Virus record (IMG/VR): IMGVR_UViG_3300006919_000200
Span: 1-34,008 of that record
Direction: 5' to 3' (one strand)
Origin: a virus
Length of the DNA: 34,008 nucleotides
In this document: one piece after another, positions 4,650 to 26,501 of the stretch
Numbering within the stretch: the stretch's first letter is position 1
How the letters are laid out: each line of letters begins with the position of its first letter
Position numbers and translations under genes: made by a program
Notes under the pieces: generated by a model
Told to the model about the DNA's origin: nothing
Databases searched by the model: none
Seen by the model: only the letters and a program-made list of their open reading frames with translations

Positions 4650-7600
4650 ATGGCAGAAGATCCAGGTTTAACAATTGCAGACGTTGCAAGCCAAGGTGTT
4701 GTTAAAGATACTCCTCCGGTTTCCTTAGCACATAATATATTTACTGACGTACGCAATGTGAGATTTAAGGATGGAGCTATAAGAAAAATAGAAGGAGAAC
4801 TATTACTTAATAATATAACTGATGATCAAAGTAGCCCTAAGTCTCTTGGTAAAGTAAGATACTTTGCTGTATGGCAAAACCCAAACTTACAACCAACCGG
4901 CTGTTATTATATATTTGTAGTTGATTTGCTTAATAACAATATTATTGTTGGACAAAAAGTTTATATTCAAAATCATACTGGAACTAAAAGAGACATTACG
5001 CCTACTGGTTTAAACAGTGGTAACGGCTTTACATTTACAACAAGTGGTTGGCAACATACATTATTTAGTGGTGGTTTTAATCTTATTATAAATAATGGAA
5101 TAGAAAAACCTCACTATATACAAGATACTCCTGGTAACACAAATATAAATAATATAGTATTAGCTGAATTACCTGGATGGGATAGTTATAATGCTGAAAC
5201 AGTTACATACGATGATACATTTGTAACAGGTGATAGTAACGTATTTGACTTAGGACAAAAAGTAGACTTTGTTAATAACTCTATTATAGTAACAGGAACT
5301 AATACAAAGTCTTCACAAGCAGGATCTCCAGCAGGAAGTGGAACACATAACGGAACTAACTTTGTACCTGGAGATTTACCAGGAACTACTCCAACAGTAA
5401 CTGGAGATAACTTTCAAACCTATACAGATACTGCAACAAATACTACAGTTATAGTTGTTGGCAACTTAAGTAATAGTAACACAGTAAAAGTAACAATAAA
5501 ATCTAGAAACCCTGTACTTGTACGATGTGGTATTATAGAATCGTTTGGAGACTTGTTAGTTGCTGGAAACTTAACAGAAGTAGATTCAGTTACTCCCGCA
5601 AACATAGTTAGAAGATTATCAGGGGTTGTTAGAACTTCTGATGTTGCTGCTCCGGGTGGTATACCTAATAACTGGAATCCTTTTAAAGCGGGTGTATCGA
5701 CAGCTGATGAATTTACTTTATCAGATACTAGTGTTATTCAAGATATGAAATCACTACAGGGTAATATGTATATTTACTCTGCAGATTCTATACATGTTAT
5801 GAGACTTACAGGAAACGTAAATGCTCCTGTGGCTTTTGCTCCTGTAACAGATGAATATGGATCTCTTACAACCGGTAGTGTTATAGAATATGATGGTAAG
5901 CATTTTGTAATAGGAAGTAATGATGTATACTTATTTTCAGGTAACCCAGGAAATATACAATCATTAGCTGATGGTAGAATAAGAAATTATTTTAAAGATA
6001 ATCTTAATCCTACTCACGAAAAACAATTACAATTACTGCATAACTATCCTGAAAACGAAATATGGATATGTTATCCAACACTAGATTCTATTGGTGGTGA
6101 GCTTGATGAAGCTTTAATTTATAATTACAGATATAACACATGGACTATACGAGACTTAGATAGTGTTATGTCAGCAGACATGGGTCCAATAAAAGGTGGT
6201 GGAGTACCTACAGCTACTGTGGCTTTAACTGGAAATAGTGGTAACTTTGGCTACATTAATAGAGGTCGTAAAGAAGTACAAGCAGTAACTATAAATGGTA
6301 AAACTCCTAGACGTACTATTGGTACTAAAGCAAGGAAAACCGTAGCTGTAGCATCGTTTTCTAATTTTACAACTGATACAAGAGAAGTTGTTGATTTAGC
6401 TATAACAGGAGATACAGGACCTAACGTTGTTAATCAAATAACTACATTAACATTCCCTTCTTCTGCTACGTTTACGTATGATAGAGATCAAAGCAGTTAC
6501 CTTGATGGTGGTGCTAGTGCTGTTATAAAAGGTAGCGCATCACATGGTATAGGTGACGTTAGTTTTCCTGCTAAAGTTATATTAGGAAATGATCAAGCTA
6601 ATGGCGCAACGATTAATATGACAACTTTTGTTGCTGCTGTAAAAGACTATATAAACTCTAACGCTGCTTTAGGAAACTTTACAGCAACTGCTAGTACTAA
6701 TGTATTGACTTTAACTTCAGACGTACCTGGGCCTAGAACATTTAATACTAGTACATTTGCTATTAGTGGTGGATCTACAAGTAACCTAACAACTAACGTT
6801 AGTACAGCCGGGGTTGGTGTATATGGTGTAGCTGCAAGTTTAAGTCCCGCTATATCTATGAGACTACAATCTTCTGAAGCCTCAGGTATACACGCAGCTA
6901 TAGATCAAACAATAACGTTAGCTAAAAATAAGACTGCAGCTGCGGATATACGTGACGATATAATAACTAAATTACAAGCTTTGGATCAATTTAATGGAGA
7001 CAGTAGTTCTATTTATAGTGTTGCAGCTAGTGGTAATAACGTTAGGCTTACCTCTAGAGTAGGTGGAAATCATAATGCTATAACCATAACGTTTAAAACT
7101 ACTCACGGTGGTACTGATTATACTGAAACTGAATTTGGTGGTAACCTAAACTCAAGTGTAAGTGTAGTTACTGCTGGTGTAGATAATAGTCAAGATCTTG
7201 TAACACTAACTGTAACATTTCCAGATGGTACAACTTCAAGTAAAGTATTAGATGGTACGTTTAGTAGAGCAAATATTGTTACAGAAGTAAGCACATTAAT
7301 TAACGCAGCCTCAGGTTGGAGTACTGCAACTAGTACCGGATTGGTAACTGCTACAGCTGCAACCGAAGGTATAATCACAAACAACTTCAGTGTGGCTCTA
7401 ACATGCGCTGGGTCATTACCAACAGGCTTTACTAATAGTACGTTCACCGGAGCACAAACGCGCGCTGGTGTGGCTCCTGCGAGCACTACGGATACTGTTA
7501 CATTAACGCCTCCTTTAGGTAATGCTGTGTCAGTTAACTTCAATGATCTTTCTGCTTACCCTGCTTATGAGCCTGATGGTTCACAAACTACAGCTGAAGT

Positions 7601-8912
7601 AACAGATGTACAGATTGCTACAGCTTTACAAGCAGCTTGGACTGACAGTACTCACTTTACTGTAACAAGAAGTAATGAAGTGTTAACGTTTACTGCTACA
7701 AGCAGGAAAGTTATTTCAGGTAGTTTTGCTTATACAGTTACGCAAGGTACTTCAAGAACAGGTACATTATTAACTGGTTTAATAACTAACTCAACTGGTG
7801 GTAACATTTCAACAACAGAGGGGGTAGATATAGTCTATGCTAGAGGGACCCGCGTTACTCTTAGTGCAAATACTGCTAGCGGCAGTAGCGTGTTATTTGA
7901 TAAGCATTATGGCGAAGGGCCTGGACGACTCTTAGATCCTACGTTTGTTAAAGCAGCTAATGATAGTGACTATGGACAAACAGGCCACGGTAGTAACTCA
8001 GCTTACTTAGCAGCTTATTATAATACTGATGCTACACAAAACAGTACAGAGCTTGCTAAGCCTAATGGTGCTGTTCAGAATATGCAACAAGCTTTATTAG
8101 ATATATTAACTGCATTAACTAATAATACTTTATTATCAGTTACCCCTGATAGTTCAGGGTCGCCTACTAATATTGTTTTAGAACCTACTCAGTTTAGTGC
8201 AACAGCTAATTATGTTACGGCTTTTGCGCCAGTGACTGAAGTTATAGCTAGTAAAGTTGCTCCAACAACTACAAATCTTACTAATGCTGCAGAAGGAACT
8301 GATGTTGCAACAACTAATCCTACGTTTAGTACTAGTGGTACATCTATTAGTACTACGTTTAATATAGTAAGACCTTGGCAATCTACAAATATAAACCCAA
8401 GTAAAATCTTTCCAATCTTTTTAGAATCTGTTACAGCTTCTAACGGTGATATAACTAATAGAATAAGAGCTGGAGATTTAGGTTACGATTTTGCTGGTAC
8501 AAATTATGTATCTTACTTTGAAAGAGTTCAGTTATCTATAAGTCCTTCTTTTGATACTGAGCAGTTAACTAGTATAGCTTTGTGGGCTGATGGTGGTAGT
8601 ATCGAAACTGTTGGTGGTGAACCTGTAAGGGCTACATTACAAGTAAGAGCTAGAGCTACTAATAACCCAGGTCAAAAAGCTTTTCTTACTGTAGCAGAAG
8701 ATAATACTCAATCAGATGCTAAAGCTAATAAGCTAGTAGTAAACGGTTTTTCTGTAGCTTCTGATTATAAAACTGATGCACGAATGTTTGGAAGATTTTT
8801 AAATTATCGTATTGATGATGCTCAAACAGCTAATGCATTAACAGCTAATAATAATAAAGCTTGGAATATATCTGGACTTCAGTTAGACGTGAAGAAAGGA
8901 GGAACTCGATAA
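4650..8912 (+). CDS. Large tail protein, T7 gp12-like (tail tubular B/nozzle) with inserted repeat modules (1420 aa)
   Basis: The start at 4650 follows AATAGGAG. The N-terminus (ASQGVVKDTPPVSLAHNI, then DVRNVRFKDGAIRK) is the typical opening of podovirus tail-nozzle/tubular-B proteins. YNYRYNTWTIRDLDS at about 491-505 is another family signature in the beta-propeller part. From about 638 to 1045 lie at least four divergent beta-alpha-beta modules of roughly 90-110 residues. The C-terminus (about 1200-1420) returns to tail-like sequence and ends ISGLQLDVKKGG, resembling the end of the fibre at the left edge. T7 gp12 is about 800 residues, so the inserted modules explain most of the extra length. 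The protein would form the distal tail tube and may display the modules outward for surface contact. Confidence 0.8.
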   Translation: MAEDPGLTIADVASQGVVKDTPPVSLAHNIFTDVRNVRFKDGAIRKIEGELLLNNITDDQSSPKSLGKVRYFAVWQNPNLQPTGCYYIFVVDLLNNNIIVGQKVYIQNHTGTKRDITPTGLNSGNGFTFTTSGWQHTLFSGGFNLIINNGIEKPHYIQDTPGNTNINNIVLAELPGWDSYNAETVTYDDTFVTGDSNVFDLGQKVDFVNNSIIVTGTNTKSSQAGSPAGSGTHNGTNFVPGDLPGTTPTVTGDNFQTYTDTATNTTVIVVGNLSNSNTVKVTIKSRNPVLVRCGIIESFGDLLVAGNLTEVDSVTPANIVRRLSGVVRTSDVAAPGGIPNNWNPFKAGVSTADEFTLSDTSVIQDMKSLQGNMYIYSADSIHVMRLTGNVNAPVAFAPVTDEYGSLTTGSVIEYDGKHFVIGSNDVYLFSGNPGNIQSLADGRIRNYFKDNLNPTHEKQLQLLHNYPENEIWICYPTLDSIGGELDEALIYNYRYNTWTIRDLDSVMSADMGPIKGGGVPTATVALTGNSGNFGYINRGRKEVQAVTINGKTPRRTIGTKARKTVAVASFSNFTTDTREVVDLAITGDTGPNVVNQITTLTFPSSATFTYDRDQSSYLDGGASAVIKGSASHGIGDVSFPAKVILGNDQANGATINMTTFVAAVKDYINSNAALGNFTATASTNVLTLTSDVPGPRTFNTSTFAISGGSTSNLTTNVSTAGVGVYGVAASLSPAISMRLQSSEASGIHAAIDQTITLAKNKTAAADIRDDIITKLQALDQFNGDSSSIYSVAASGNNVRLTSRVGGNHNAITITFKTTHGGTDYTETEFGGNLNSSVSVVTAGVDNSQDLVTLTVTFPDGTTSSKVLDGTFSRANIVTEVSTLINAASGWSTATSTGLVTATAATEGIITNNFSVALTCAGSLPTGFTNSTFTGAQTRAGVAPASTTDTVTLTPPLGNAVSVNFNDLSAYPAYEPDGSQTTAEVTDVQIATALQAAWTDSTHFTVTRSNEVLTFTATSRKVISGSFAYTVTQGTSRTGTLLTGLITNSTGGNISTTEGVDIVYARGTRVTLSANTASGSSVLFDKHYGEGPGRLLDPTFVKAANDSDYGQTGHGSNSAYLAAYYNTDATQNSTELAKPNGAVQNMQQALLDILTALTNNTLLSVTPDSSGSPTNIVLEPTQFSATANYVTAFAPVTEVIASKVAPTTTNLTNAAEGTDVATTNPTFSTSGTSISTTFNIVRPWQSTNINPSKIFPIFLESVTASNGDITNRIRAGDLGYDFAGTNYVSYFERVQLSISPSFDTEQLTSIALWADGGSIETVGGEPVRATLQVRARATNNPGQKAFLTVAEDNTQSDAKANKLVVNGFSVASDYKTDARMFGRFLNYRIDDAQTANALTANNNKAWNISGLQLDVKKGGTR
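6561..7784 (+). repeat. Array of four divergent protein modules inside the tail gene
   Basis: Protein residues of about 638-722, 735-845, 848-940 and 947-1045 share a pattern: beta strands with a PDGT- or PLGN-like turn, a helix of the form (I/V)xTxLxxxIN or LQAAW, then a strand pair such as SGNNVRLTS or SNEVLTFTATS, ending in a G/T-rich strand. The repeats have diverged at DNA level, so no exact DNA repeat is present. I recognise this module type from phage tail and other surface proteins. Bases 7441-7500, between modules three and four, are about 60% GC. Confidence 0.55.
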
Positions 8913-12163: not shown

Positions 12164-14623
12164 ATGATGAACTTACCACCTATTGAAAAGATCGATAAGG
12201 TAGATCGATATGGTAATAAAGTTTCTATGCAATACGAAAACAACAGGCAAAAGAAACATAAAGTACAGGATCGACATGGTAATAGTTTGACACTTACATT
12301 TGCTTCACCTGATATTACTCCACCGCCTTCTATGACAGAAGTACCTAATTATTCTGCAAAAGGCGGAAACTCTAATAATCACCCTGGTAATCCAAAAGGT
12401 ACAGATACTGTGCCAGCTTGGCTTACACCTGGCGAGTTTGTAGTAAATAAAGAAGCAACACAAATGTATGAACCACTCATACGACAAATGAATAACCATG
12501 GACGACAAGTTCAAAATGAAAAAGCTATGTATGCTTCTCATGGTAGTTCAGTAGATGTAGATTGGATTACTGAAGATCTATTAGATAAACTACGATTTGC
12601 AGAAGTAGGCAACTTAAAACCTGAACAAATGGTTTCACCTGCTGGAGCTAGAGGACCATACCAAATTATGCCAGCTAACTTTGATGGTGGAGCTGGGTTT
12701 GGTACAACTCCTATTTCAGCTGCTGATGCTTTTAACGAAGAAAAGTCTAGAAGATTTGCAGCAGAATATTTAGCTGGAATACAAAACGCTTTTCCTGGTT
12801 GGAGCCCAACAGAAGTTTTACAAGCCTACAATTGGGGACCGGGTAATATGAGGAAATATAAGTCAGGCGCAGGAAATACTATGCCTACAGAAACTACTCA
12901 ATATCCTATGAAAATTTTAGGACCTGGTAAACAATATGCTAGCAATACTCCATTTAAGTTAAGTGATCTTTTTGGTATGTCTGCTTATGCTGCTGATACT
13001 AATAAACAGGTTCCTCAATTAGCTCAGAATAATGTAAGTGATATAAACTCTATTATATATGGTGGAACACAACCGGTTGATAACACTGTAAAACCAGCAG
13101 TAACCAATGATAGTCCTTTACCTGATTGGATGAAAGGATACCACACTTTTGGAGAAGAGGTTAAAAAAGATTTTGAATCTACTGGTGAACTACCTATTAT
13201 TTCTGAAAGCCAAATGGTTCCATTGTCAAGTGATAAAGGCGTAGAGCTTAGACCTTCTGATGTTAAGTCTAATGAACCTGGATTAAAGCAAGATCCTGGT
13301 ATGTCAAAGGAAGAAAAGTCTAGCATTGTACAAAAGATTAAAGAGCAGCTAGCGGCTAAGGAACTTGAGGAAGAAGAAAAGAAAAAGGCTGCTGAGGCAG
13401 GAGCTAATATTGCTGATGGCGATACAGGTGATGGAGATGCTGGCGCAAAAGAAATGAGTAAAGCCGAAAGGTTTTTAAAAGATTTATTAGGACCGTTGTT
13501 TAATAGATCAGAACTAAAACGAATGGCTATCTTTTATCTTGGCGCTAGAGCTATGAATAATACTCATGGAGATAGTTTAGCGTTTGCTCTTGAGAACTAC
13601 ATAAATCGAGTAGACTCTTTGGAGGAAGCTGCTTTAAGGTTTACATATAGTGAACAAGGACAAAAGCACACTGATAAATCTTTACAAGATTTTCTAGATA
13701 ACGACTATGATAGAAGTTTATTAATAGAAAAAGGATCACCAGTACGAAATACTGCTCAGTTTGTAATGGCTTATAGTTTGAAGAACCGTAATGTTAAAAG
13801 AAGACTTGAAAAAGTAGAAGTTGGAACAGGTAATAATAAAAGAACTTTACATAGAGATGTTAAAACTAATACCATTATACCCGATAGTTTTTGGAATGAC
13901 TGGACTACTAATGAAACATACGCTTATGGTACTGATAAATATAACGCAGAGTCAGCTAGATTAATTAAACTATTTGAAGATACTTTAAAAGCAGCTAGAA
14001 ATCTAAACTCTACTACAGTAAAAGATAGAACTGTAAAGAGTCCATACGATAAGTTAAACATTCCAAAAGAAGCACAAAAGATGGCAGCCTTTGTAATGCA
14101 AAAAGGACCAATAGATGCACAACGAAAAACTGGTGTTGATGCAAACTTGTTTGGAGCTGCTATAAACAATGCTTATTCTTTAGCGATGCAAGATGCTATG
14201 GCTGATGAAGTAGAGTTTACAGACTTATTACCTTATGTAAAGTATTTACAGTTTGAAACTAAAACTAATGCTAACCCTAAATTATTTGAAAGTGAACTTG
14301 ATACTCCTACAGAAAAGAAAACAGGTGTAGGCGATCCTATTAGTATGAGAGAGTTTGACACCTTAAAAGAAGGTATCGTTACAATGATGTTAACAATGCC
14401 AGACCCTGATGGAGAACCAGGTAGTAAACCTTTTGCTACTATGGATCCTGATACAGCATTTAATATTTATGTGACAGACACTGAAGAGCGTTGGAATAGT
14501 TTAACTAAAAATGAAAAAGGTGTTTGGAGAAGCAGAGCATTAGGTAAAGGTAAAGGTAAAACTTCAGGGTTCTTTGAGTTTTTGCGTGCCAGATATTTAC
14601 TTAATATAGCAGGAGATGATTAA
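12164..14623 (+). CDS. Internal virion protein with lytic transglycosylase (SLT) domain (819 aa)
   Basis: The SLT domain at about 135-240 shows catalytic E147 in FAEVGN, then SPAGARGPYQIMP at 158-170 and AYNWGPGN at 221-228, matching the E, GxxQ(I/M)MP and AYN-GPG signatures of soluble lytic transglycosylases. It would cut peptidoglycan glycan strands as the DNA-translocation channel crosses the wall, like the N-terminal domain of T7 gp16. Upstream, GTDTVPAWLTPGEFVVNKEA (79-98) is a motif common in phage structural proteins. Residues of about 385-420 are highly charged and helical. Either ATG, at 12164 or 12167, may be used. The stop overlaps the next start (TAATG). Unlike T7, the SLT domain sits on its own core protein and not on the largest one. 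Confidence 0.82.
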   Translation: MMNLPPIEKIDKVDRYGNKVSMQYENNRQKKHKVQDRHGNSLTLTFASPDITPPPSMTEVPNYSAKGGNSNNHPGNPKGTDTVPAWLTPGEFVVNKEATQMYEPLIRQMNNHGRQVQNEKAMYASHGSSVDVDWITEDLLDKLRFAEVGNLKPEQMVSPAGARGPYQIMPANFDGGAGFGTTPISAADAFNEEKSRRFAAEYLAGIQNAFPGWSPTEVLQAYNWGPGNMRKYKSGAGNTMPTETTQYPMKILGPGKQYASNTPFKLSDLFGMSAYAADTNKQVPQLAQNNVSDINSIIYGGTQPVDNTVKPAVTNDSPLPDWMKGYHTFGEEVKKDFESTGELPIISESQMVPLSSDKGVELRPSDVKSNEPGLKQDPGMSKEEKSSIVQKIKEQLAAKELEEEEKKKAAEAGANIADGDTGDGDAGAKEMSKAERFLKDLLGPLFNRSELKRMAIFYLGARAMNNTHGDSLAFALENYINRVDSLEEAALRFTYSEQGQKHTDKSLQDFLDNDYDRSLLIEKGSPVRNTAQFVMAYSLKNRNVKRRLEKVEVGTGNNKRTLHRDVKTNTIIPDSFWNDWTTNETYAYGTDKYNAESARLIKLFEDTLKAARNLNSTTVKDRTVKSPYDKLNIPKEAQKMAAFVMQKGPIDAQRKTGVDANLFGAAINNAYSLAMQDAMADEVEFTDLLPYVKYLQFETKTNANPKLFESELDTPTEKKTGVGDPISMREFDTLKEGIVTMMLTMPDPDGEPGSKPFATMDPDTAFNIYVTDTEERWNSLTKNEKGVWRSRALGKGKGKTSGFFEFLRARYLLNIAGDD

Positions 14624-17600
14624 TGTCAGAACTTGTAAGAACGCTAAGAGATTCCGGCAAGTTACCTAAGTATGGATCAGTTGAAAGTAACCCATTTGCG
14701 TTAACAAACGACTACATTTTTATTGATGCTGATACTATAAAGTCTAAGTCTGATCCTACTTTTAGTGGAAGATTAAAAGGTATTGACGCTCCTGAAGTTG
14801 CAAAATTCTTTTCTCCTACTGATACTGAAGGTTCTACGGCTGGTGGTTATAGAGCCGGCGCTTCATTAATGGAGCTTGCACAAAAGCAAGGGTTTACTAA
14901 TGTTGTTAGAACTGGAGAGCTAGATGCGTTTGATAGAGAGCTTGTAGAATTACGAGACGAAAGAGGTAGAGACTTTGTAGATACTCTAATGAGAACTGGA
15001 GTAATGGAACCTACTAGATACTCTACAGCTCAGCATATTAAATACGCTGATATGGCTAAGATCTTTGGTGTAGCTGATTTAGGTGAAGACTTCGATATAG
15101 CTCGTAACGCTATTGCTGATACGATCGCTGAAGAAACTCAGCACCATATGGTATTCAGAGACTTAGCTACCACTGAACAGCAGTTAGCTTATGGTGGTGG
15201 CTATTATATGCCTGGTTCCGTAGCTATTAGAGATCCTAAAAGAACTCTACAAAATAAAGCAAAGAATCCGTTATCTGAAGCATGGGATATAGGTTGGGTT
15301 GGTGCATACGAAGGACTGTCAGGGTTTTTAGCAATGGGAGGAGAAAGCACTGGTATTAAATGGGCTGAAGAATTAGGAGAAGCTTCAGTATACAGACAAC
15401 AAAGATACCTAGCTAATAAACCTGAAATTGTTACTAGCTTTAAAGATATTGATGGTATATTTGGAAAGCAAGGCGCATTTCAGTATTTATTAAATAACGC
15501 TGTAATATCTGTTCCCTATATGGCAGCTACTGCAGCTGGTTATCTTGCTGCTGGTCCTACTATGGGTGCGTCTATGTTGCTTCCTATAAGTTTGTATACA
15601 GGTACTATATATAATGATCAGCCTGAAGATGGAAAGAATGCTGGCTTAGCTATTGCTGGTGGTTTAACTCAATCTGTTTTAGATAGACTTGGTTTGCAAC
15701 TGCTAATTAGAGGTGGTGCAGGTACTATGCTCACCAAAAAAGGTAGAGACGAAATAATAGAGGCATATGCAAAGAAAGCTAATGTAAGTCCGGAAGAAGC
15801 TAGCAGAGTAGTACTAAATACTACTAGAAAAGAGATGGCTAAACTTGCTAAGGACGCAGCTGCTTTTGCTAAACAACAGATTTCTGCTAGAAATGTATCT
15901 AGAAACTTAATAAAGAGAATGGTAATAGGTGGTGCTGGTGAAGGTACTACTGAATTTATGCAAGAAGCTATTGGCTACACTGCTGCTCATGCAGGTAACG
16001 GGTTTAAAGATTGGGATGCCAATGAGTTTAATACTAGATTAATTGATGGTGCAATCGCTGGTACATTTATAGGTAAAGCTTTTACAATCCCAGGTACTAT
16101 GTGGGATTATGGTGTATGGAGAGACGTTCAATATAAACTGTCCCCTAGTACAGGAAAGCAAATATCTGAAGCGGGTGTTTCTGCAAATGAAGATATTCAA
16201 AAACATGGTAGACAGTTTAACATTCAACAAAACAACGCCAATCTTCAAGCAGCTATGGATACAGCTAAACAAAGAATTAGTACTCTTACTAAATCTATAA
16301 GTGGTTTAGAGAAAAAACTTAAGGTAGCTAAAGCAAAAAATAAAAGAGAACAGTTAAAGTCTGATATAGATAGACAAAGAGAAAAGCTAGAAGAAGCAAA
16401 GTCGCTTTTAAATTTTGAAGATATAAACGATAGAAGCGCAAGACACGAAAAAGCTTTACAAAAAAGAACTGTTACTGAATTTAGAAACGATTTATGGAAT
16501 AACCTGCCAGCCTTATGGAGAGGTTTGACTAGGCATATATTTCCTTTTGATTTACAATTAAAAGCTGATAACACAGCTGAACAAATAAAGAAAGATAAAT
16601 CGTTAGTTGGTGATGTTCCAGCTATTAGGCATTTAGCTGAAGCTCATAGTGGTAACCTTGAAAAGTCTATGACTGGTATGCATTATGAAAACCGCATGCA
16701 CCATTATATTTCAGCGCTTAAAGAAAAATTAAAAGACGTTAACACTACACTTTTTGCTTTTGGCAGAACAGATACTAGAGCAAGTCGATTAAAATTTAGT
16801 GAAGAGTTTTATGATGCATTTGTTAAGGCTAGAGAAAACGCTAAAGCAAAAGGTCGTGAAAACAATATTAAGTGGGACGAAGATTTAGAAGGACCATTTA
16901 GAGAGCACTTACCTGAGTTTAAAGCTTTAATAGCTAGAATGGAAAAAGTTGCTAACGATATTTTTAATATGCAAAAGAAATATAATCCGTTTCTTGGTAA
17001 GATAGCTTACTTTTTAGCTAGAAGTAGAACTCTTGATAAAGAAAAAATTGCTCGTGATCGAGGTACATTTGAAAAATTATTGTCAAAGCACTTTGGTTAT
17101 TCAGATAAAAAAGCTAGAGAACTTACTACAGCTATTTTAGCTATGGATTCTACTGATGGCTTTGTAGATACTGGAATGTTAGATTACGATGGTAACTTTT
17201 CTGTTACATCAAGGCATACCTTTAGACCTAAAGCACAAAAGAAAAGAGAGCTTGGAATATCAGATATATCTGACTTTAAAGATTTTTTAGAAAACGATTT
17301 GTTTACTAACATGTCTAACAACCTTAAGTCTGCTGTAAGATATACTACTATAGAAGAGTATGTTGGATCTAATAACGAAAAAATAAATTACTGGTTAGAT
17401 AAAGCTGAAAAGCAACTAATAAAATCTGGTATGCCTGAAGACGAAGCTAAAGCTCTTGTAGATCAAATAGCTTTTAGAATGAAGAGATACTATGATGCTC
17501 AGTCAGGTAACTATAAACGAACTCATAAGCCTGTATGGGAGTTTGTTAAAAAGAATCTTATCTTTGTTACTACTGTAACACAACTACCTTTAGCTACTGT

Positions 17601-18816
17601 ATCTAATATCGTAGAACTAGGTACATCATTAAGAGGCCTTAGTAAAGATCAGATCTTTGGTACAAAAGAGGAGCTTAAAAGAGGAAAATTACAACCTGGT
17701 CAAAGAGGTAGTATTGCCGCAATAGTTTATACATTTGTAGAAGAATTTTACAATACTATACTTAGAGCATATAGCACTGTTGCTATGAAACCTATGCTTG
17801 ATCGAAGAACTAGTTACGGTTATCAAAGAAACAAAGAGCTAGGGTTTATGAGCTTTGAAGTTGGTGCTGCTCATACAACAGGTGTTAGTGAAGTTGGCCA
17901 TTTACGACAAAGAATACTTGATGTGTATTTTAAAGTTATTGGTTTGCAACAATGGACTAATGCTATGAGAGCGGGTAGAGCAGCTATTGCAGCTGATTAT
18001 ATCCTTGATAAGGTAGCAACTATAGCAGAACATAGAACTGCTAAGATTCAAGAGAAAGATCCTATATGGACTAACGAAATGGATGAGGCTCAAGAATCTT
18101 TGCGTAACCTAGGAATAGATCCTAACTTTATGGTTAAGTTTGTTATAGATCCGGAGATGCAGCTTAATAAAACACATGTTAATACTTTTAAAACTAATAT
18201 GCGTGAAGGAGAGTTTAACTTTGTTAATGAAGCTGTTGTATTACCTCAGTCCGCAAACAGACCTTTGATATTCCAAGATCCTCGGTTTGCTTTATTCACA
18301 CAGTTTCAAGGATTTATATCTACGTTTACTGCTTGGCATTTACCTAAAATGTGGAATGATCTTGTAAAACGTGGTACTCCTGGTATGAAGTATAACGCTT
18401 TTGCTACAGCAATGTCAATGATTGCATTAGGCTTTTTATCTCAGCATTTAAAAGACTTACTTAAGTTTGGCGAACCAAGCCCATACTTTACTGGTATGGA
18501 ATACATGAGAAGAGGCGTAGGTGCTAGTGGATTGCTAGGTACAGGAGAACGATTAATTGACTTTGCTTTTCCTATGTATGATAAGCGATACCCTAATACT
18601 ACTATGTGGGCAATTGGTACTGTTGCAGGAGAATCTGCAGCGGTAAGTAAAGCTTTAAGACTTGGTGGTATATCGTATGACGTTGCAGCAGGAGACAAAC
18701 CTCCTGAAACTCTATATAAACTATCGCCTTTTAGTCAAACATTATATAAACATCTTCACCCTGACAACGTATCTTGGGATTATGATCGTTTCCCTGATGA
18801 AGTAATTAATCAATAA
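14623..18816 (+). CDS. Giant internal virion protein with N-terminal staphylococcal-nuclease-like domain (1397 aa)
   Basis: Residues of about 30-128 form an SNase-like domain. FIDADTI (33-39) supplies metal ligands D35/D37; GRLKGIDAPE (49-58) supplies R50, D55 and E58; DAFDRELV (101-108) supplies R105. The spacings R50-D55-E58 (+5, +8) and D101-R105 (+4) equal those of S. aureus nuclease (R35-D40-E43; D83-R87), so the catalytic set looks intact. Residues of about 290-345 and 430-495 contain hydrophobic and Gly-rich segments, including GGAGEGTTEFMQEAIGY, that could insert into membrane. About 540-600 is a charged coil. The C-terminal third includes RPLIFQDPRFALFTQFQGFI and RRGVGASGLLGTGERLIDF, patterns of large phage core/polyvalent proteins. 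It would probably be ejected with the DNA. I have not seen a nuclease on this class of protein described. Confidence 0.75.
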   Translation: MSELVRTLRDSGKLPKYGSVESNPFALTNDYIFIDADTIKSKSDPTFSGRLKGIDAPEVAKFFSPTDTEGSTAGGYRAGASLMELAQKQGFTNVVRTGELDAFDRELVELRDERGRDFVDTLMRTGVMEPTRYSTAQHIKYADMAKIFGVADLGEDFDIARNAIADTIAEETQHHMVFRDLATTEQQLAYGGGYYMPGSVAIRDPKRTLQNKAKNPLSEAWDIGWVGAYEGLSGFLAMGGESTGIKWAEELGEASVYRQQRYLANKPEIVTSFKDIDGIFGKQGAFQYLLNNAVISVPYMAATAAGYLAAGPTMGASMLLPISLYTGTIYNDQPEDGKNAGLAIAGGLTQSVLDRLGLQLLIRGGAGTMLTKKGRDEIIEAYAKKANVSPEEASRVVLNTTRKEMAKLAKDAAAFAKQQISARNVSRNLIKRMVIGGAGEGTTEFMQEAIGYTAAHAGNGFKDWDANEFNTRLIDGAIAGTFIGKAFTIPGTMWDYGVWRDVQYKLSPSTGKQISEAGVSANEDIQKHGRQFNIQQNNANLQAAMDTAKQRISTLTKSISGLEKKLKVAKAKNKREQLKSDIDRQREKLEEAKSLLNFEDINDRSARHEKALQKRTVTEFRNDLWNNLPALWRGLTRHIFPFDLQLKADNTAEQIKKDKSLVGDVPAIRHLAEAHSGNLEKSMTGMHYENRMHHYISALKEKLKDVNTTLFAFGRTDTRASRLKFSEEFYDAFVKARENAKAKGRENNIKWDEDLEGPFREHLPEFKALIARMEKVANDIFNMQKKYNPFLGKIAYFLARSRTLDKEKIARDRGTFEKLLSKHFGYSDKKARELTTAILAMDSTDGFVDTGMLDYDGNFSVTSRHTFRPKAQKKRELGISDISDFKDFLENDLFTNMSNNLKSAVRYTTIEEYVGSNNEKINYWLDKAEKQLIKSGMPEDEAKALVDQIAFRMKRYYDAQSGNYKRTHKPVWEFVKKNLIFVTTVTQLPLATVSNIVELGTSLRGLSKDQIFGTKEELKRGKLQPGQRGSIAAIVYTFVEEFYNTILRAYSTVAMKPMLDRRTSYGYQRNKELGFMSFEVGAAHTTGVSEVGHLRQRILDVYFKVIGLQQWTNAMRAGRAAIAADYILDKVATIAEHRTAKIQEKDPIWTNEMDEAQESLRNLGIDPNFMVKFVIDPEMQLNKTHVNTFKTNMREGEFNFVNEAVVLPQSANRPLIFQDPRFALFTQFQGFISTFTAWHLPKMWNDLVKRGTPGMKYNAFATAMSMIALGFLSQHLKDLLKFGEPSPYFTGMEYMRRGVGASGLLGTGERLIDFAFPMYDKRYPNTTMWAIGTVAGESAAVSKALRLGGISYDVAAGDKPPETLYKLSPFSQTLYKHLHPDNVSWDYDRFPDEVINQ

Positions 18817-18828
18817 CTGGAGAAATAC

Positions 18829-21800
18829 ATGAGTAGATTTTCAACTGCAGCTGGACAGAGAAGAAAAATTGAAGCTACAAAAGATCTTTTCTATAATCAA
18901 GCTGGTCAGTCAGAACTATTAAAGAAGTTAAACGCTCAGCTTATAAAGGGACGAACACCTGAAGGACAAGCGGTAGATACTTCTTACTATGAAGGGTTTG
19001 GGTTATCTCCTGAAGTAGAACAAACCCCTATATACGATAGTTTAACAGAAGAAATAGTTGATCCAGACCAGGGAAGAACTGGACCCGCAGTAGTATCAAA
19101 GCTAAAAAGCAAAGCTCAGGAAGCTGGTTTATTAAAACCACCTATGGATCCTGATCGAGCTGCTAGACTTGACGACTACTTTAGAAAAGAAGAAGACGAT
19201 AAACGTCAACAAGCATACGACGATCTTATTGCTATGCAAAGAAACCAAGAAAGAGTACCAGGAGTTTCTGAAATAAGACCAGACTTTGCAGCTAGTTTTA
19301 AGGATAAGCAAGCAAGAAGAGATTATTTAGGTAAAGCTTCTCTTCCAATCCGTAGAACTCTGCAAGAAATACATAATGATCATAAAGAAGGTGAGCTACA
19401 AAACCGTACTATATCTAACTCGCCTTTATCTTATATTAAGAATGATGGCTTTGGAGAACTAATTAGACGCGGAGATCTTTTGACTAAAGCTTTTTTAACT
19501 ACGATAACCGATGACATAATAGATAAAGCAGATCTTAAACAGCAAGTTGCTAAAGATCAAATAAGATTTAGAGATAAAGATGGTAACCTTTTAAAGAGAG
19601 AACTTACACCTGAAAACTCTCCTAAAGGCGTAAGCACAAAGCAATCTTACTTAGAGCCTTATGAAATTTCTGCGCATATTGAGTCTCAGGTACTATCAGC
19701 TATTGATGAAGGACTAGTTGATTCACCTATTGTACGGAATATATTAGGTAAATTAAAAGATCCTTATTTAAAAGATGGTGAACTTACAGAGTCTGGAAGA
19801 GAGCAGTTGATAAAAGACTACGCTGAAGAGCAAGGGTTATCAATGGCAGAAGCTACAACAGAAGTTGATGGTGTTCTTGTAGATGAAAGGTTTTACGGAA
19901 GAGTATCTTTAGACGATAGAATAAGACAAGCTTTGAGATCGCCTGAAAGAAAGGCAATGGTAGCTGCAGGTAAAAGAACTAATGCTCGAACTCTTAAGAT
20001 AAAAGCTGAAGAGATAATGAAGCGTAGAGCTAAGAAGAAAGAGCAAGGTAAAGCTCCTGATCCGCTGCCGTTTATGTTTATACTAGAAGCACTACACCCT
20101 AACATAAACTTTAATGAACTAAATCTTAAAGGTATCTTGTTTGATCCTGATGGATTTAATGCTGGTATACTAGGAGTTAATCCATATATCAGACGTAAAA
20201 GCGGTGCAAGCCCTAGACGAATGATGATTGATCCAGTGTTTGGAAAGATCATGAGCTTTGTTACTGAAAAGTTTTTATTGCAAACTCAGTTTATACCTAC
20301 TGTAGGTGAAGCGCATCCTGATGCTGAAGCTTTAATACGAGAAGGCGTACTAGTTAGAACTCCTACTCCTGATACTGATAACATAACCCCTGACGACAAA
20401 AGAGATATTGGGTCTTATCTTGAAGCTCCTAGTATTGAAACAAGCGAAACAGGTGGCGTAACTTTATTAAAAGGTAACAGTCAACTTGGCAGAGAAATAT
20501 TTAAAGAGTGGAAGAGAGAACAAAACAGAAGATTAGGTAGACCGACTGATGAGTACTCATTGAAAGGAGTTCCTGAATCCTCGTTTGAAATAGTAGGTAC
20601 ATTTGCTAGAGAGCTTTATGCTGAAGTTAACCCTGACTTATATCAGAAAGAAACTCTTAATGATCAGACATACTACAATTTAACTGATAAAGGATTACAA
20701 GCTTTAAATGCTGCTGCTCGTGCAGCTCCTGACGCTTTTAGAAACGTAGAAAAAATGCCTAGGTTAGTTCCGCCAACTGATTTTATAGGAGAGAGAACAC
20801 CTACTAAGCAAACTACTACTGTTGTAAATAGGTATATAAGACAGATCGAACAGTCTAGAAAAAATATGAGTTCTATTGCGCATAAGGTAGACACATTAAG
20901 AAGTAAACTTATGAAGCAAGCGGCTGTTCAAGTTTTATCTAATGCTAAATCACAAACAGAGTTAGACAAGCTTGGAGACTTCTTTGGATTAGGACCTGAA
21001 AAGTATATTGAATTTAGAGGTACCTTTGATAAAAAAGTTTTTGAAATACAGAAGTATGCAGGCTTAGAAAAACGAGCTGCGCAAGAAAGAGTATATGAAA
21101 CGTATCGTCCTGATTACGAGATGGATAAACAGTTTGCTAGATTCTTAGAGTTTATGCATACAGTAGGCAGATACTCTGATGGCGCATACTATTTAGACTT
21201 TGTAGTACAGAACTTGCAAGGACGAATGCACGTTGATCAGACTAGATTTAATCCACAACTTATTCCTTGGGTTAGATATATTACTGGTGGCGTTGAGCCT
21301 GTTCAGTTTAATCCTTATACTGCTATAGGTGATGAGCATAATATATTTAAAGAGCATATGGCTAAGCAGTTTATTCCTGCAGCCAAAGGAGATTTACCTA
21401 ACGAAGCTATTAAAAAGTTTGATAGAGAATTTAGTAAACATCTTAATAACGAAACTGATAGTTTGTTTTCAGCTATTATTTCAGAAGGAGCTACTGTTGA
21501 ATCTAGTCTTATGAGTGACGAAGATAATAAAAGATACGACAAACTTCTTTCAGAAATTAAAATCAACGTTAATCCTGAAATGTATCAGGGTGAAATGGCT
21601 GAAATGGATCCTAACACTATAAGACCTAAAGGTAGTTCGTTATCAAATCCGTTAGCTGACATAGTTCCTAATGAATACATCGCAGTTCCAGATGAAGTTG
21701 CTCAAATGCCACCTCTTAATATACCTGATTCTTTATTAGCAAGAACTAGAAAGGGTGGTATGAAAGGACCTAGTGAAGGACTTGAGGGCTTTGCCAAGGT

Positions 21801-23544
21801 TGAAGCTGCCATTGAACTAAAGCGTTATGCAGATGCTTGGAAAAATAAGACGCCATTTAGAACTAATATAGCCATTGAGTTGGACGGTACAACTCATGGT
21901 CCTTCTTCTTGGTTGGCTATGCTTGGTGCTATTAAGTCTGCATTTAGAAGTGGGGTACTAAGAAAGGAAGGAGCTAAAAAAGTTTTAGATGACATGGTAG
22001 TTGCAGAACTTTTAGAAGTTGATGGATTACCTGCTGATATGCAGGACCAGGCAGCTGGTGATTTACGTGATGGATTAGCAACTTATATGCTAGAAAATGG
22101 TAATGATTATGCTAGTGCTTACCATGCAGATACTGAGTTTAGTCCTATATTATATTCTATTTTACAAAAAGCTGTCTTGGATCGTGATAACTTTCTTAAG
22201 AAACCTCCTATGACTTTGTCTTATGGTCAGTTACTTGGTAACCTTAGAAAAGCTATATATGATGTTATATATACTGGTGAGCAAGCTACTGCTATTAACG
22301 AGCTCATTGAAACAGAAGGCTTTAGAGATAGTTTAGCTAAGCAAGGTAAGAACGAACCAGCTGAAGAAGTTGTAGCTACTTACTTACATAACATATTAGC
22401 TGATGCTATTGATATGGAACTACATCCTGCAGTTGTTCAAGTCGGTCAGTTGTTAAGAGCTAACAATGCAATAGCTATGTTAAGCGATGAAATCATGACG
22501 GTTAAAAATGCTTTAGGCATTGATAACTATATTGGTGCAAAAGAAAGAGTAGTTAAGAGAGACACTGATGGTCAAGTTATGATTGGGGAGTTTCATTTAC
22601 AGACTGAGGGATCAGGCTCTGCAAGAAAGCCGATCGTGTTATATAAGTCTGAGCCAGCAGGAAGCGCTTTAAGAGATGGGATTCCTGGTGGATGGGGAAG
22701 AGGTAGAATTATACCTGCTATTATCCAAGGTATTGATGGAGCTTGGATGAACCTAATGTTTAGAGGTGAATCATGGAACGCTCTTGAAGGTAACTACATG
22801 CTACCTATTATGGATGCTGTTAAGACAGATCTTAGAGGAGCAGCTGAAGTTAGACGTCAAGCAAATAAGAACTGGTGGAAAGTTATTGAAGAGTATGATC
22901 CATGGACAAGTCTATTTATGGAATGGCAACCTGCCGCAGTAAATAAGTTTTACAATAAGATAGGTTATAATGCTAAAGATAACAAGTGGACTGAAAACCC
23001 TAAACAAATTATTCCGTTTAGAGATGGATTAACAGGACCTAAGTATGCTGAGCTGCCTCCGTTAAGAGTAACTCCTACTGCTCAAGGAATTAAAGGCTTA
23101 CAAGCTGCTGATTTATCTGGACCTTATAAAGGATTTTGGTATTTAACTCATCAGACAGCACCTTCAGAGTTTGTTGGGTATGGCGAGTTATCTTTACAAA
23201 ACTTACAAAAACTTATTGATGATACTATGGAGTTCAGAGCTAGAGATAAAGGCGAAGATATACAAGAGTATAATAATAAAAAGTGGGAAGCAGCTGGAGT
23301 GTTAGCTAAAAAGGTAGCTCAAGCTGAAGCTGCTAAAATATACGGTTCTAGTAAAGATAGAACACCACTTGATGGTATGAGTAGAGAGTACATGAAACAA
23401 TTCTTTGACAGACTTGTAGCCGTATTAGATATTGTAAAGCGTAATAAGATTAATACTGTTACGCTCAACAAAGAGAAGCAAGTACTAATACAGTTAGAGA
23501 AGAGTAAAAAGAGTAAAGGCGGAATACTTCAAGTTAACCTATAA
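18829..23544 (+). CDS. Giant virion-type single-subunit RNA polymerase (1571 aa)
   Basis: SD CTGGAG precedes the ATG. The core at about 780-1350 carries the T7/N4 single-subunit RNAP motifs in order. NLQGR with R799 is the TxxGR/DxRGR motif. IELDGTTHGPSSW has D1019, equivalent to T7 D537. KKPPMTLSYG has K1124 and Y1132, at the exact spacing of T7 K631 and Y639. IQGIDGAW (1299-1306) corresponds to T7 VHSQDGSH. LPIMDAVKTD has D1329, equivalent to T7 D812. The helix following D1329 also aligns with T7 after HDSFGT. About 780 N-terminal and 220 C-terminal residues are unassigned. Size, location after the core proteins and separation from the ordinary RNAP fit an N4-like virion RNAP that is packaged, ejected and transcribes early genes. 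Two T7 histidines are replaced (Q1300, M1328). Polymerase fold confidence is high; packaging is inferred. Confidence 0.82.
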   Translation: MSRFSTAAGQRRKIEATKDLFYNQAGQSELLKKLNAQLIKGRTPEGQAVDTSYYEGFGLSPEVEQTPIYDSLTEEIVDPDQGRTGPAVVSKLKSKAQEAGLLKPPMDPDRAARLDDYFRKEEDDKRQQAYDDLIAMQRNQERVPGVSEIRPDFAASFKDKQARRDYLGKASLPIRRTLQEIHNDHKEGELQNRTISNSPLSYIKNDGFGELIRRGDLLTKAFLTTITDDIIDKADLKQQVAKDQIRFRDKDGNLLKRELTPENSPKGVSTKQSYLEPYEISAHIESQVLSAIDEGLVDSPIVRNILGKLKDPYLKDGELTESGREQLIKDYAEEQGLSMAEATTEVDGVLVDERFYGRVSLDDRIRQALRSPERKAMVAAGKRTNARTLKIKAEEIMKRRAKKKEQGKAPDPLPFMFILEALHPNINFNELNLKGILFDPDGFNAGILGVNPYIRRKSGASPRRMMIDPVFGKIMSFVTEKFLLQTQFIPTVGEAHPDAEALIREGVLVRTPTPDTDNITPDDKRDIGSYLEAPSIETSETGGVTLLKGNSQLGREIFKEWKREQNRRLGRPTDEYSLKGVPESSFEIVGTFARELYAEVNPDLYQKETLNDQTYYNLTDKGLQALNAAARAAPDAFRNVEKMPRLVPPTDFIGERTPTKQTTTVVNRYIRQIEQSRKNMSSIAHKVDTLRSKLMKQAAVQVLSNAKSQTELDKLGDFFGLGPEKYIEFRGTFDKKVFEIQKYAGLEKRAAQERVYETYRPDYEMDKQFARFLEFMHTVGRYSDGAYYLDFVVQNLQGRMHVDQTRFNPQLIPWVRYITGGVEPVQFNPYTAIGDEHNIFKEHMAKQFIPAAKGDLPNEAIKKFDREFSKHLNNETDSLFSAIISEGATVESSLMSDEDNKRYDKLLSEIKINVNPEMYQGEMAEMDPNTIRPKGSSLSNPLADIVPNEYIAVPDEVAQMPPLNIPDSLLARTRKGGMKGPSEGLEGFAKVEAAIELKRYADAWKNKTPFRTNIAIELDGTTHGPSSWLAMLGAIKSAFRSGVLRKEGAKKVLDDMVVAELLEVDGLPADMQDQAAGDLRDGLATYMLENGNDYASAYHADTEFSPILYSILQKAVLDRDNFLKKPPMTLSYGQLLGNLRKAIYDVIYTGEQATAINELIETEGFRDSLAKQGKNEPAEEVVATYLHNILADAIDMELHPAVVQVGQLLRANNAIAMLSDEIMTVKNALGIDNYIGAKERVVKRDTDGQVMIGEFHLQTEGSGSARKPIVLYKSEPAGSALRDGIPGGWGRGRIIPAIIQGIDGAWMNLMFRGESWNALEGNYMLPIMDAVKTDLRGAAEVRRQANKNWWKVIEEYDPWTSLFMEWQPAAVNKFYNKIGYNAKDNKWTENPKQIIPFRDGLTGPKYAELPPLRVTPTAQGIKGLQAADLSGPYKGFWYLTHQTAPSEFVGYGELSLQNLQKLIDDTMEFRARDKGEDIQEYNNKKWEAAGVLAKKVAQAEAAKIYGSSKDRTPLDGMSREYMKQFFDRLVAVLDIVKRNKINTVTLNKEKQVLIQLEKSKKSKGGILQVNL

Positions 23545-23776: not shown

Positions 23777-26140
23777 CTATGAAAAGAAATAGTCACTATC
23801 AGCTATTCCTTTTATATCTAGATCTCCTAACTTATAGTTGTAATTAAACTTCTCAGGTTCAAGCAATAGCATTTCTGCTATGTCTTTATAGAAATCATCA
23901 TGATCATACATTTTAATGAACACTTCCTTAGTTAAACCTAACAAGCTAGCTACATCACAAGCGTGAGTAGAAAATGAGTCATGAATAGCAGCAAAGTCTC
24001 CGTCCCAGTGATGGATAATTAGAGCCATATGTGCTGCGTCCATACTGTGAATGAAGTTTGGACTTATACCTGAGGCAAAGCCACCAGGACTAGGTATCTT
24101 TTTACCATACACTAGCCTATGTTCTTTACCTACATGCTGGATCCTCATATCAGAGATCCAACTTTTCCACTTGACGTCTTCCATTACATAGTTTTCGTAC
24201 CGTACTGGAAAGCCAGATGGAGTTTGCCAGTCAACTACAGGTTCCTTTAACTCAGCAATAATGTGGTTTGCTATAGCTTGCAGGTAACTCATAGTCTCTA
24301 ACGGGCCTGGACACACCTCATCGATAGCTTTTATAAGCTGAAATGCTAAGTCGTTACAGTCACTCATAGTAATATTGTACTTACTATGGAATCCTTCGGC
24401 ATAACAGTCAGCATACATGTTCAAAGCTATGGCTAGGTGGCCCGCAGAGTACGCTCTAGTCATCGCTCCGCGTTTCGATATACCTTTCCTTATGTGTTTC
24501 ATAGGCATGTCTCTCTGCGCGAACCAGGAGGGCACGCGAGCTATCAATGCTTTAGCTGTTTGCACATAAAAGTCCTTAGGTATGTCAGTTTTTACTAGTC
24601 CCACTAGTTCTCCGGCCTTTTTATCCTTAGATATAGCAGCTAAGTGCTGCCAGCCGTTGTTAGAACCGTCGATCGGGACAGGAAGATCGATGTAGTATAC
24701 ACCATCTTTAGACTCTTGATCCCATAGGCTACACCATGCCTTGCAACAAGCAAGAAAACCTACAGGCTTCTCAGCTTTTTCATGGATAGTACGATTTACC
24801 CATGTATTTCTAATGAAGTCTTCGTTATTAAGAACCCATTTAACTCGATCATCAATGGTCATTTTATCTACAGAAATATCTGTAAGACCTTCATTATCTA
24901 ACGCTGATTTATAATCGGCTTCACACCACTCCGGTATATTATCGATTGAATACGCCTGGTTGTATGAACATGCTGTATGCACAGCAAAGTAATACAAACC
25001 TTCTTCGGTCATTGGTTGTGCATTAGCAAACTTCAATAGACCTCGCTCCATATCTTTACCTTGGTAGTTTAAATACGATTCACGATAATACAATCTCCCC
25101 CTATAATCTGCATCTACATACTGAAAGAATATTTTATCTTTCAACGCTTCTGCTTTTTGAACAGTCATATTATATGCGTCAAACTTACTACGGTTTTTAA
25201 GTAATACTAACTTAGCGTTCCAATGCGTAGCAGCTTCATCGTACTTAGCTTGAGCTCGTATCAGTGGCTTTTTGTTAGGTTTATTACGTAACTTATTAGT
25301 CAGTCGTCGTAGTTCACCATAGTATTTCTTTTCAAGAGACTTATTACCTAACTCAGGTTTAAATACAACCTCATTCCAGTATAAGTTCTTGCCTTCTAAC
25401 TCTTTGTTGTTACCAAATATACAGTATCGGTAGTTCTTACCAGTTTCATCAGCAACTTTTAGAGTTTCAGTAACAAACTTACGCTTGTTTTTAAGTACAG
25501 CTTCTAATATATCGGAGTCTATTGTCCAAGCTGTACGTTGTAGTTTATTTATTGCATCAATAAATGGTTGGTCAAGCAATAACTTAAAGTCCTCGCTCTT
25601 ATCGTATCCCCAGTGTTTTATTACTGGGAATCCATTGTCTTGAAACAGATTACTTATACGCTTTATCTTAGTAGTAGATGTGTTTTGTATAAGCTCATTG
25701 ACTACCTGGTCAGGTAGCGATCCTATGTTTAGCCACTTATCAGATGTCTCAATCATATATGGTGCACGGCTGTAAGGTTTCTTACCAACCGGGTTTGCTT
25801 CCCATTTAATCTGAGCTTCTGTAGGTGCCCTCACTATTTTAATATATCCACACTCATAGAAAGCTTCAAGGATTAGGTCGCCGACTGTTACATCGGCTCT
25901 AAATCCTAACTCAACTCCTTTCTGTAGCAACACGTTCTTACCTATAGCTACTGAGGCTGCAGTAAGTTTACATGTTGCTGATTCAGATGTTGATGTTTTT
26001 CTAAAGTGATACTGCAGTATTGTTAACGCATCATACACAACTCTCTTCGGTTCCAGCTTGTGTTCGTTCACCAGCCGTACTGCCCACCTCTGAGGTGTAC
26101 TTATAATTTTCTGTTCTAAATACTCTATCACATTCTGCAT
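23777..26140 (-). CDS. T7-like single-subunit DNA-dependent RNA polymerase (787 aa)
   Basis: The SD AGGAG lies 7 bases before the ATG at 26140. Motifs in order are DADYRGRLYY (343-352, with R349 in the role of T7 R425), PVPIDGSNNGWQH (D491 ~ T7 D537), KRGAMTRAYS (K556, Y564 ~ K631, Y639), PNFIHSMD (H698 ~ H784) and AIHDSFST (H720, D721 ~ H811, D812). The C-terminus DSDYFFS resembles the T7 foot ending in FAFA. At 787 residues it is shorter than T7 RNAP (883), mostly in the N-terminal promoter-recognition half. It should transcribe middle or late genes from phage-specific promoters, which I could not identify. The motif B region (about 24421-24540) is about 54% GC, whereas a sample elsewhere in the gene is about 32%. 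Confidence 0.95.
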   Translation of the reverse strand: MQNVIEYLEQKIISTPQRWAVRLVNEHKLEPKRVVYDALTILQYHFRKTSTSESATCKLTAASVAIGKNVLLQKGVELGFRADVTVGDLILEAFYECGYIKIVRAPTEAQIKWEANPVGKKPYSRAPYMIETSDKWLNIGSLPDQVVNELIQNTSTTKIKRISNLFQDNGFPVIKHWGYDKSEDFKLLLDQPFIDAINKLQRTAWTIDSDILEAVLKNKRKFVTETLKVADETGKNYRYCIFGNNKELEGKNLYWNEVVFKPELGNKSLEKKYYGELRRLTNKLRNKPNKKPLIRAQAKYDEAATHWNAKLVLLKNRSKFDAYNMTVQKAEALKDKIFFQYVDADYRGRLYYRESYLNYQGKDMERGLLKFANAQPMTEEGLYYFAVHTACSYNQAYSIDNIPEWCEADYKSALDNEGLTDISVDKMTIDDRVKWVLNNEDFIRNTWVNRTIHEKAEKPVGFLACCKAWCSLWDQESKDGVYYIDLPVPIDGSNNGWQHLAAISKDKKAGELVGLVKTDIPKDFYVQTAKALIARVPSWFAQRDMPMKHIRKGISKRGAMTRAYSAGHLAIALNMYADCYAEGFHSKYNITMSDCNDLAFQLIKAIDEVCPGPLETMSYLQAIANHIIAELKEPVVDWQTPSGFPVRYENYVMEDVKWKSWISDMRIQHVGKEHRLVYGKKIPSPGGFASGISPNFIHSMDAAHMALIIHHWDGDFAAIHDSFSTHACDVASLLGLTKEVFIKMYDHDDFYKDIAEMLLLEPEKFNYNYKLGDLDIKGIADSDYFFS

Positions 26141-26501
26141 TTTCTCTCCTAGTTTTGCGGAATGGGTTATGTGTTACGTTAAACAAGTCAGACCCACGCC
26201 TTAAGCAACATTTAATTTCATGGGATTCTACAACAGTAGCTTCTTTGTCGGTCATCTGACCACCCTTGATTACTACAATGTCTTGAATCCTATGAGTACC
26301 TAGTTTATCTAGTAACCACACATGATGGTCGTAGCTGCGGTTAGTTATCTGATAAGCACGATGTAAGGTACCCTTACCTACATACGTTACTGTTTTACTA
26401 TCAGGATCTTGGTGAAAGTAAACACAGTACATATCTTCAGGATACCTTATAACTTCGTTAGTGTTTTCTCTAATCTCTATCTTGCGCAACTTCAACTCCA
26501 T
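26031..26501 (-). CDS. GIY-YIG family nuclease (156 aa)
   Basis: The domain at about 22-115 has CVY (26-28) in the GIY position, YVGKG (40-44) in the YIG position, R48 in the following helix, EATVVESHEIK with candidate catalytic E92, and LFNVTHNP with N108. This order matches GIY-YIG endonucleases, including free-standing homing types. The last about 36 codons run out of frame over the start of the RNA polymerase gene and are low in conserved character. The start lies inside the end of the dCMP deaminase gene. It may cut competing phage or host DNA, or act in homing; no DNA-binding tail such as NUMOD is visible. Confidence 0.68.
   Translation of the reverse strand: MELKLRKIEIRENTNEVIRYPEDMYCVYFHQDPDSKTVTYVGKGTLHRAYQITNRSYDHHVWLLDKLGTHRIQDIVVIKGGQMTDKEATVVESHEIKCCLRRGSDLFNVTHNPFRKTRRENAECDRVFRTENYKYTSEVGSTAGERTQAGTEESCV

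Follow-up and report, generated by a model that had tools for sequence, protein, structure and literature searches.

Results

Identification of the nuclease domain

The IMG/VR virus record IMGVR_UViG_3300006919_000200 was analysed over positions 1 to 34,008, and this whole stretch of 34,008 nucleotides is referred to below as the window. Its plus strand encodes at 14623..18816 a giant protein of 1397 amino acids, which consists of an N-terminal staphylococcal nuclease (SNase) domain and an all-helical body predicted to be an internal core (ejection) protein similar to gp16 of phage T7. The ATG start codon of this gene overlaps the stop codon of the upstream gene (TAATG) and is preceded by an AGGAG-like ribosome-binding site. 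The SNase domain (PF00565) was delimited by family profile and structure model to residues 28-150 (14704..15072, plus strand), and the body of residues 200-1397 (15220..18813, plus strand) is homologous to virion and internal core proteins of phages. A previous sequence-only reading of the same DNA had placed a nuclease at residues 29-128, a span that falls inside the domain, and the residues it relied on were found in the open reading frame (ORF) exactly as listed, namely D35, D37, R50, D55 (+5 from R50), E58 (+8), D101 and R105 (+4 from D101).

To collect relatives, the T7-like RNA polymerase encoded nearby was used as bait in a scan of IMG/VR. The scan yielded 78 loci and, for the window protein or its N-terminus, 25 distinct full-length homologues. 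The profile built from these 25 retrieved 158 related viral contigs, of which 80 were kept. One of 74 distinct domain sequences is cut by a contig end, so that residue counts are based on 73 domains, and statistics on columns of the full protein are based on 50 non-redundant full-length homologues (<80% identity). Nearly all members are viral contigs related to marine phages, and identity of the body within the family falls to about 17%. Two contigs binned into metagenome-assembled genomes (Bacteroidetes and Pelagibacter bins) give only a weak hint, from which no host can be named. Among isolates, the SNase domain was found only in Roseobacter phage CRP-7 and Aeromonas phage phiA008, and in both it is unannotated. 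CRP-7 gp34 ('hypothetical protein') is a full-length relative with 26% identity over the aligned part, the only one in a cultured phage. In phiA008 a 2050-aa 'hypothetical protein' (L174, 3745-9897) starts with the SNase domain and its body is similar to the marine family only in part, so the fusion reaches beyond the marine contigs. Two apparent full-length members without the domain (contigs L136 and L169) were rejected, because both encode it in ORFs that are interrupted in the contig; the reading frame is broken after the SNase domain at about 1869 in L136 and about 8704 in L169, either by assembly error or in a real split gene.

When the window protein or its N-terminus alone was searched against Pfam, PDB and PHROGs, no SNase match was obtained, and the sequence-only proposal had therefore rested solely on a motif recognized by eye. 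Such single-sequence searches fail because the window sequence has diverged, whereas family profiles succeed. The profile of the 25 N-termini matched S. aureus nuclease in the PDB (E 9.2e-8; 1.8e-6 for the 1snc sequence group), and its top alignments pair exactly the catalytic residues. PF00565 was matched individually by 9 of the 25 members (best E 2.4e-5), and the phiA008 member clears the curated cut-off of this family with 29.9 vs 21 bits. Fold comparison was based on an AlphaFold2 model of residues 1-190, the domain core of which has a predicted local distance difference test score (pLDDT) of 85-93, with a low-confidence loop of about 12 residues after E58 (60-71). S. aureus nuclease was matched by Foldseek with E 1.5e-4 and probability 1.00, and by VIA-align with Z 8.2 and a root-mean-square deviation (rmsd) of 4.1 over 116 aligned residues in 28-150, all matches listed by either program being S. 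aureus nuclease. The TM-scores were modest, about 0.5 by target, which is in line with a diverged domain that has one disordered loop, and the nuclease barrel that the sequence-only reading presupposed is present in the model. Our results demonstrate that residues 28-150 of the 1397-aa protein are an SNase domain.

Conservation of the active site

The active-site residues of S. aureus nuclease have their equivalents on the plus strand of the window, with D35 and D37 (14725..14733) corresponding to D19 and D21, R50 (14770..14772) to R35, D55 and E58 (14785..14796) to D40 and E43, and D101 to R105 (14923..14937) to D83 to R87. The alignment of the 25 N-termini has the invariant columns D35, D37, T38, R50, E58, R105 and G115, and among the 73 domains, the mean pairwise identity of which is just 36%, the only invariant columns across residues 25-150 are 35, 37, 50, 58, 105 and 115. 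D35, D37, R50, E58 and R105, including the three positions R50, E58 and R105 on which the sequence-only reading had staked its proposal, are thus unchanged in 73/73 distinct domains. D101 is kept in 58/73, and the D40 equivalent D55 is D in 49 domains, S in 10, E in 8, N in 4, Q in 1 and T in 1, which suggests that metal use or coordination may differ among members. The earlier statement that every catalytic position is kept holds in the window protein for the carboxylate and arginine set, but not for all substrate-contact residues, because T41 and Y85 of S. aureus nuclease are replaced by A56 and F103 (Y113 probably corresponds to Y133), and across the family it fails at D55.

Among the 50 full-length homologues, 48 of the 1397 columns are invariant (at least 98%), and D35, D37, T38, R50, E58 and R105 belong to them. 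For six given positions, the chance of all lying among these 48 columns is 1.2e-9, and the chance that at least five of the six positions named by the sequence-only reading do so is 2.3e-7. In the CRP-7 clade, nonsynonymous divergence (dN) of the domain estimated by NG86 is about 0.04-0.06, about half that of the remaining protein, with synonymous divergence (dS) of 0.7-2.2. The active site of the SNase domain is under purifying selection with strong constraint. Distances of domain and body are correlated (Mantel r 0.82, 0/999 permutations), and the domain has therefore travelled with its carrier throughout the history of the family.

It is conceivable that the domain no longer cuts and serves as a structural or nucleic-acid-binding module with an oligonucleotide/oligosaccharide-binding (OB) fold. 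SNase folds can turn into binding modules, as in the repeats of the Tudor-SN type, and the variation of D55 would agree with such a role. However, binding modules lose the catalytic residues, and it is exactly the catalytic D/D/R/E/R set that is invariant here in spite of the low overall identity, so we consider loss of catalysis very improbable.

The carrier protein

The body of the window protein matched phrog_6958 'virion structural protein' with E 3.5e-18, as did 15 of the 25 members (best 2.3e-31), and its homologues include Pseudomonas phage records named 'particle protein' and 'structural protein'. LUZ24-like Pseudomonas phage proteins (SCYZ1 orf39 and BroderSalsa DNAM_240; phrog_6958) have a homologous body but truly lack the SNase domain. 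A model of residues 200-1397 was all helical with a mean pLDDT of 75.9. Foldseek searches of BFVD matched it to proteins from Vibrio phage VP2 (internal virion protein; E 1.6e-8, TM 0.53 by target), Pseudomonas phage PAO1_Ab05 (putative internal (core) protein; E 6.2e-8) and a Providencia phage ('internal virion protein D'; E 3.4e-5). Further matches in BFVD were proteins labelled 'large polyvalent protein associated', transglycosylase, matrixin, RadC-like JAB or ART-PolyVal-like. VIA aligned the body model with chain 8vb2_A of the PhiM1 pre-infection ejectosome over 289 residues (Z 7.6, rmsd 7.7), which is far longer than nearly all other helical matches listed, the Z alone being not decisive. 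We therefore treat the protein as a putative gp16-like internal core protein, probably ejected, with an SNase occupying the N-terminal enzyme slot. The suggestion of a core protein in the sequence-only reading agrees with this homology in sequence and fold, and with the position of the gene between transglycosylase and virion-RNA-polymerase-like genes. The accompanying description as membrane-penetrating found no support, as there is no convincing strong transmembrane segment in the 1397-aa protein (best 19-residue Kyte-Doolittle mean 1.56).

The protein might instead stay out of the virion, or not be ejected, and be a cytoplasmic enzyme made late in infection, a reading for which there is some room, as no proteomic study of an SNase-bearing member was found. 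This is highly unlikely in view of the homology and fold match of the body to structural and internal virion proteins, and of the position of the gene in the structural cassette in every contig covering it.

The cassette of giant proteins and the other genes

The 1397-aa gene sits among structural genes and beside other large putative internal virion proteins, and the order of large upstream protein, SNase protein and large downstream protein holds in every contig covering the cassette. The upstream protein of the window (12164..14623, plus strand) has 819 amino acids and a transglycosylase SLT domain (PF01464, E 2.5e-8), and the same slot is occupied by other large proteins in relatives, with a Pesticin/phage-lysozyme domain in that of contig L003. 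The downstream protein of 1571 amino acids (18829..23544, plus strand) is probably a highly divergent single-subunit RNA polymerase of the virion type, as in phage N4. The 1571-aa protein itself gave weak matches to RNA polymerase families, and in its family phrog_2206 'virion RNA polymerase' was matched by 6 of 14 members (best E 4.2e-11). The catalytic D1019, K1124 and D1329 of single-subunit RNA polymerases are kept in 50/50 relatives of this protein, and the D and G of motif A, the K...M and YG of motif B (K...MT..YG) and the D of motif C are unchanged in the same 50. Its profile matched the N4 mini-vRNAP weakly (E 0.0034) and around motif C only, and gave no significant match to the T7-like RNA polymerase family, which is why the assignment rests on the motifs and the PHROG matches. 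A conventional T7-like RNA polymerase gene (23777..26140, minus strand; PF00940, E 2e-53) is convergent with the cassette, so that the phage may carry two single-subunit RNA polymerases. The downstream proteins of the CRP-7 type form a second, separate family that occupies the same slot. RNA-polymerase-like motifs (QGGD...AIHDA) were seen by eye in CRP-7 gp33 (L001, 23913-27620), the profile of which had no significant match to the window-type family or to the N4 virion RNA polymerase.

Elsewhere in the window, auxiliary genes recognized by Pfam are all on the minus strand and encode a deoxycytidylate-type deaminase (26470-26910), a PRA-PH (MazG-like) pyrophosphohydrolase (32233-32817), a methyltransferase (32810-33652) and a 5'-3' exonuclease (28771-29589). 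A 1420-aa structural protein (4650-8912, plus strand) matches phrog_3287 (virion structural protein) in its first part and continues as a long Thr/Ser-rich stretch that is apparently repetitive. The B12-dependent ribonucleotide reductase is a single ORF in the window (2904-4637), and the annotation of the corresponding region of CRP-7 (L001, 7309-9927) has two pieces separated by a small ORF. Searches of the window gave no Rfam match for structured RNA and no PADLOC match for anti-phage defence.

Discussion

Based on the homology and genomic context of the SNase protein, we infer that its N-terminal 150 residues form a catalytically competent endonuclease, probably Ca2+-dependent and cutting DNA and RNA with little sequence preference, which would be carried in the virion, ejected at the start of infection and directed at nucleic acid other than the protected phage genome. 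We put the probability of this reading at roughly 0.6. In the capsid, the 1397-aa protein would be one of three giant cassette products, together with the peptidoglycan hydrolase and the virion RNA polymerase. The slot held by the transglycosylase in gp16 would thus be taken by a nuclease, and the peptidoglycan hydrolase is found on the neighbouring protein. Inside the virion the nuclease would have to be kept off the packaged genome by its folding state, by burial in the core or by lack of metal. After ejection, host DNA or RNA at the envelope or in the cytoplasm, or the DNA of rival phages, would most likely be cut and the shielded incoming genome spared, and an attack on host nucleic acid would serve take-over and nucleotide supply.

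Several points weigh against this reading. Packing an active nuclease with the phage's own DNA would require some form of control. About one third of the domains have S, E, N, Q or T in place of D55, the Ca2+ ligand. The body model found no significant solved structure in the PDB by Foldseek, only unspecific helical matches, and the PhiM1 match (Z 7.6, rmsd 7.7) lies in the range that helical proteins can attain by chance. In the literature searched, no biochemistry, proteomics or localisation was found for the SNase-bearing family. In addition, free Ca2+ in the bacterial cytosol is far below the requirement of S. aureus nuclease, which argues against a cytoplasmic site of action unless metal use has shifted. 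A position in the periplasmic part of the channel, as for the N-terminal enzyme of T7 gp16 (PMC8954989), would put the nuclease where Ca2+ is plentiful in marine hosts and keep it apart from the shielded phage genome, and a position in the cytoplasm after full ejection would be equally open.

The target could also be the phage's own DNA: the nuclease might trim or nick the genome termini, resolve the end that lies at the portal or, in maturation or ejection, clear an end that is tangled or over-packaged. In T7-like phages the internal core proteins stack at the portal, where the DNA end lies, and the domain is found on a protein of this type; furthermore, its invariance implies a constant substrate common to all members. 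On the other hand, related Pseudomonas phages with the same core-protein family are viable isolates without the domain, and SNases have little sequence specificity, which is a poor fit to the processing of defined ends. We consider processing of the phage's own ends unlikely, and less likely than action on host or rival-phage targets.

A further proposal keeps the nuclease in the periplasmic ejection channel, where it would use millimolar Ca2+ of seawater and destroy the DNA of co-infecting or superinfecting phages (exclusion). Seawater contains about 10 mM Ca2+, and the contigs of nearly all members have marine phages as relatives. The N-terminal transglycosylase of T7 gp16 is placed in the periplasm, where it forms part of the channel (PMC8954989). 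For the ParB-like nuclease domains of injected polyvalent proteins, degradation of superinfecting elements has been proposed beside attack on host nucleic acid, i.e., the same two uses as are considered here (PMC5512222). However, other podophages normally shield their incoming DNA with a channel of their own, and the presence of the domain in Aeromonas phage phiA008 shows that it is not tied to seawater. We regard exclusion restricted to the periplasm as rather doubtful, if somewhat more credible than end processing.

As compared to S. aureus nuclease (PF00565, 1snc group), the window domain shares the fold and the order and spacing of the equivalents of D19, D21, R35, D40, E43 and R87. That enzyme is secreted and stand-alone, whereas the window domain heads a giant virion-type protein, is below Pfam detection when searched singly, has a low-confidence loop of about 12 residues after E58 and belongs to a phage family in which the D40 position is relaxed. 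The window protein resembles T7 gp16 and internal virion protein D in its very large helical build and in having an N-terminal enzyme domain, and its body model has fold-level matches to internal virion protein D and internal core proteins; the N-terminal enzyme of T7 gp16 is a lytic transglycosylase, which in the window is encoded by the neighbouring gene. Phage SNase domains are known as stand-alone genes. An N-terminal SNase-related domain on a virion protein was noted in 2007 in the tail-hub protein of the BtI1 prophage of Bacillus thuringiensis, where its use was 'not obvious' (PMC2147016), and the present fusion is thus a variant of an already known kind and not wholly new. The BtI1 protein is a single case on an unrelated carrier, the baseplate hub of a long-tailed phage, in which the catalytic residues were not surveyed. 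Polyvalent proteins are large injected proteins with interchangeable enzyme domains, and proteins with their associated domain are matched by the body model, but they carry several effector domains of disparate activity, whereas one enzyme domain, fixed family-wide, was identified in the window protein; SNase is not mentioned in the main text of their survey (PMC5512222). In phage N4 the virion RNA polymerase is ejected along with two other ejection proteins encoded in its operon, gp50-gp51-gp52 (PMC12633501), an arrangement similar to the cassette described here, although the N4 polymerase has 3500 amino acids as compared to 1571 in its highly divergent counterpart. Nucleases are not mentioned in a review of ejection proteins (PMC8954989) or in the CRP-7 paper, and no description of an SNase in podophage ejection proteins, or alongside a virion RNA polymerase, was found in the literature searched. 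What appears to be new is that an SNase head, catalytically intact as judged from sequence, occurs family-wide on an ejection protein of the gp16 type whose neighbour is a probable virion RNA polymerase, and an entry nuclease function for podophage ejection proteins is undescribed as far as this literature shows.

These results point to a concrete and testable enzyme for the ejection proteins of podophages, the best-known enzyme of which is the gp16 transglycosylase. They predict a nuclease that is in the cell as soon as infection begins and may be a little-noticed weapon or tool of infection. Tentatively, and at somewhat less than even odds, we suggest that a widespread and for the most part unannotated phage family, mostly marine, ejects an entry complex of three enzymes, i.e., a peptidoglycan hydrolase, an SNase nuclease and an RNA polymerase, in which the dedicated nuclease would attack nucleic acid of the host or of rivals ahead of all phage gene expression. 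The SNase-headed family is common in marine viral data, as the 158 contigs from one profile scan indicate, and the cultured relatives CRP-7 and phiA008 make the prediction testable. If true, it would bear on host take-over, nucleotide recycling and rival exclusion, as well as on the way in which phages pack a nuclease harmlessly beside DNA.
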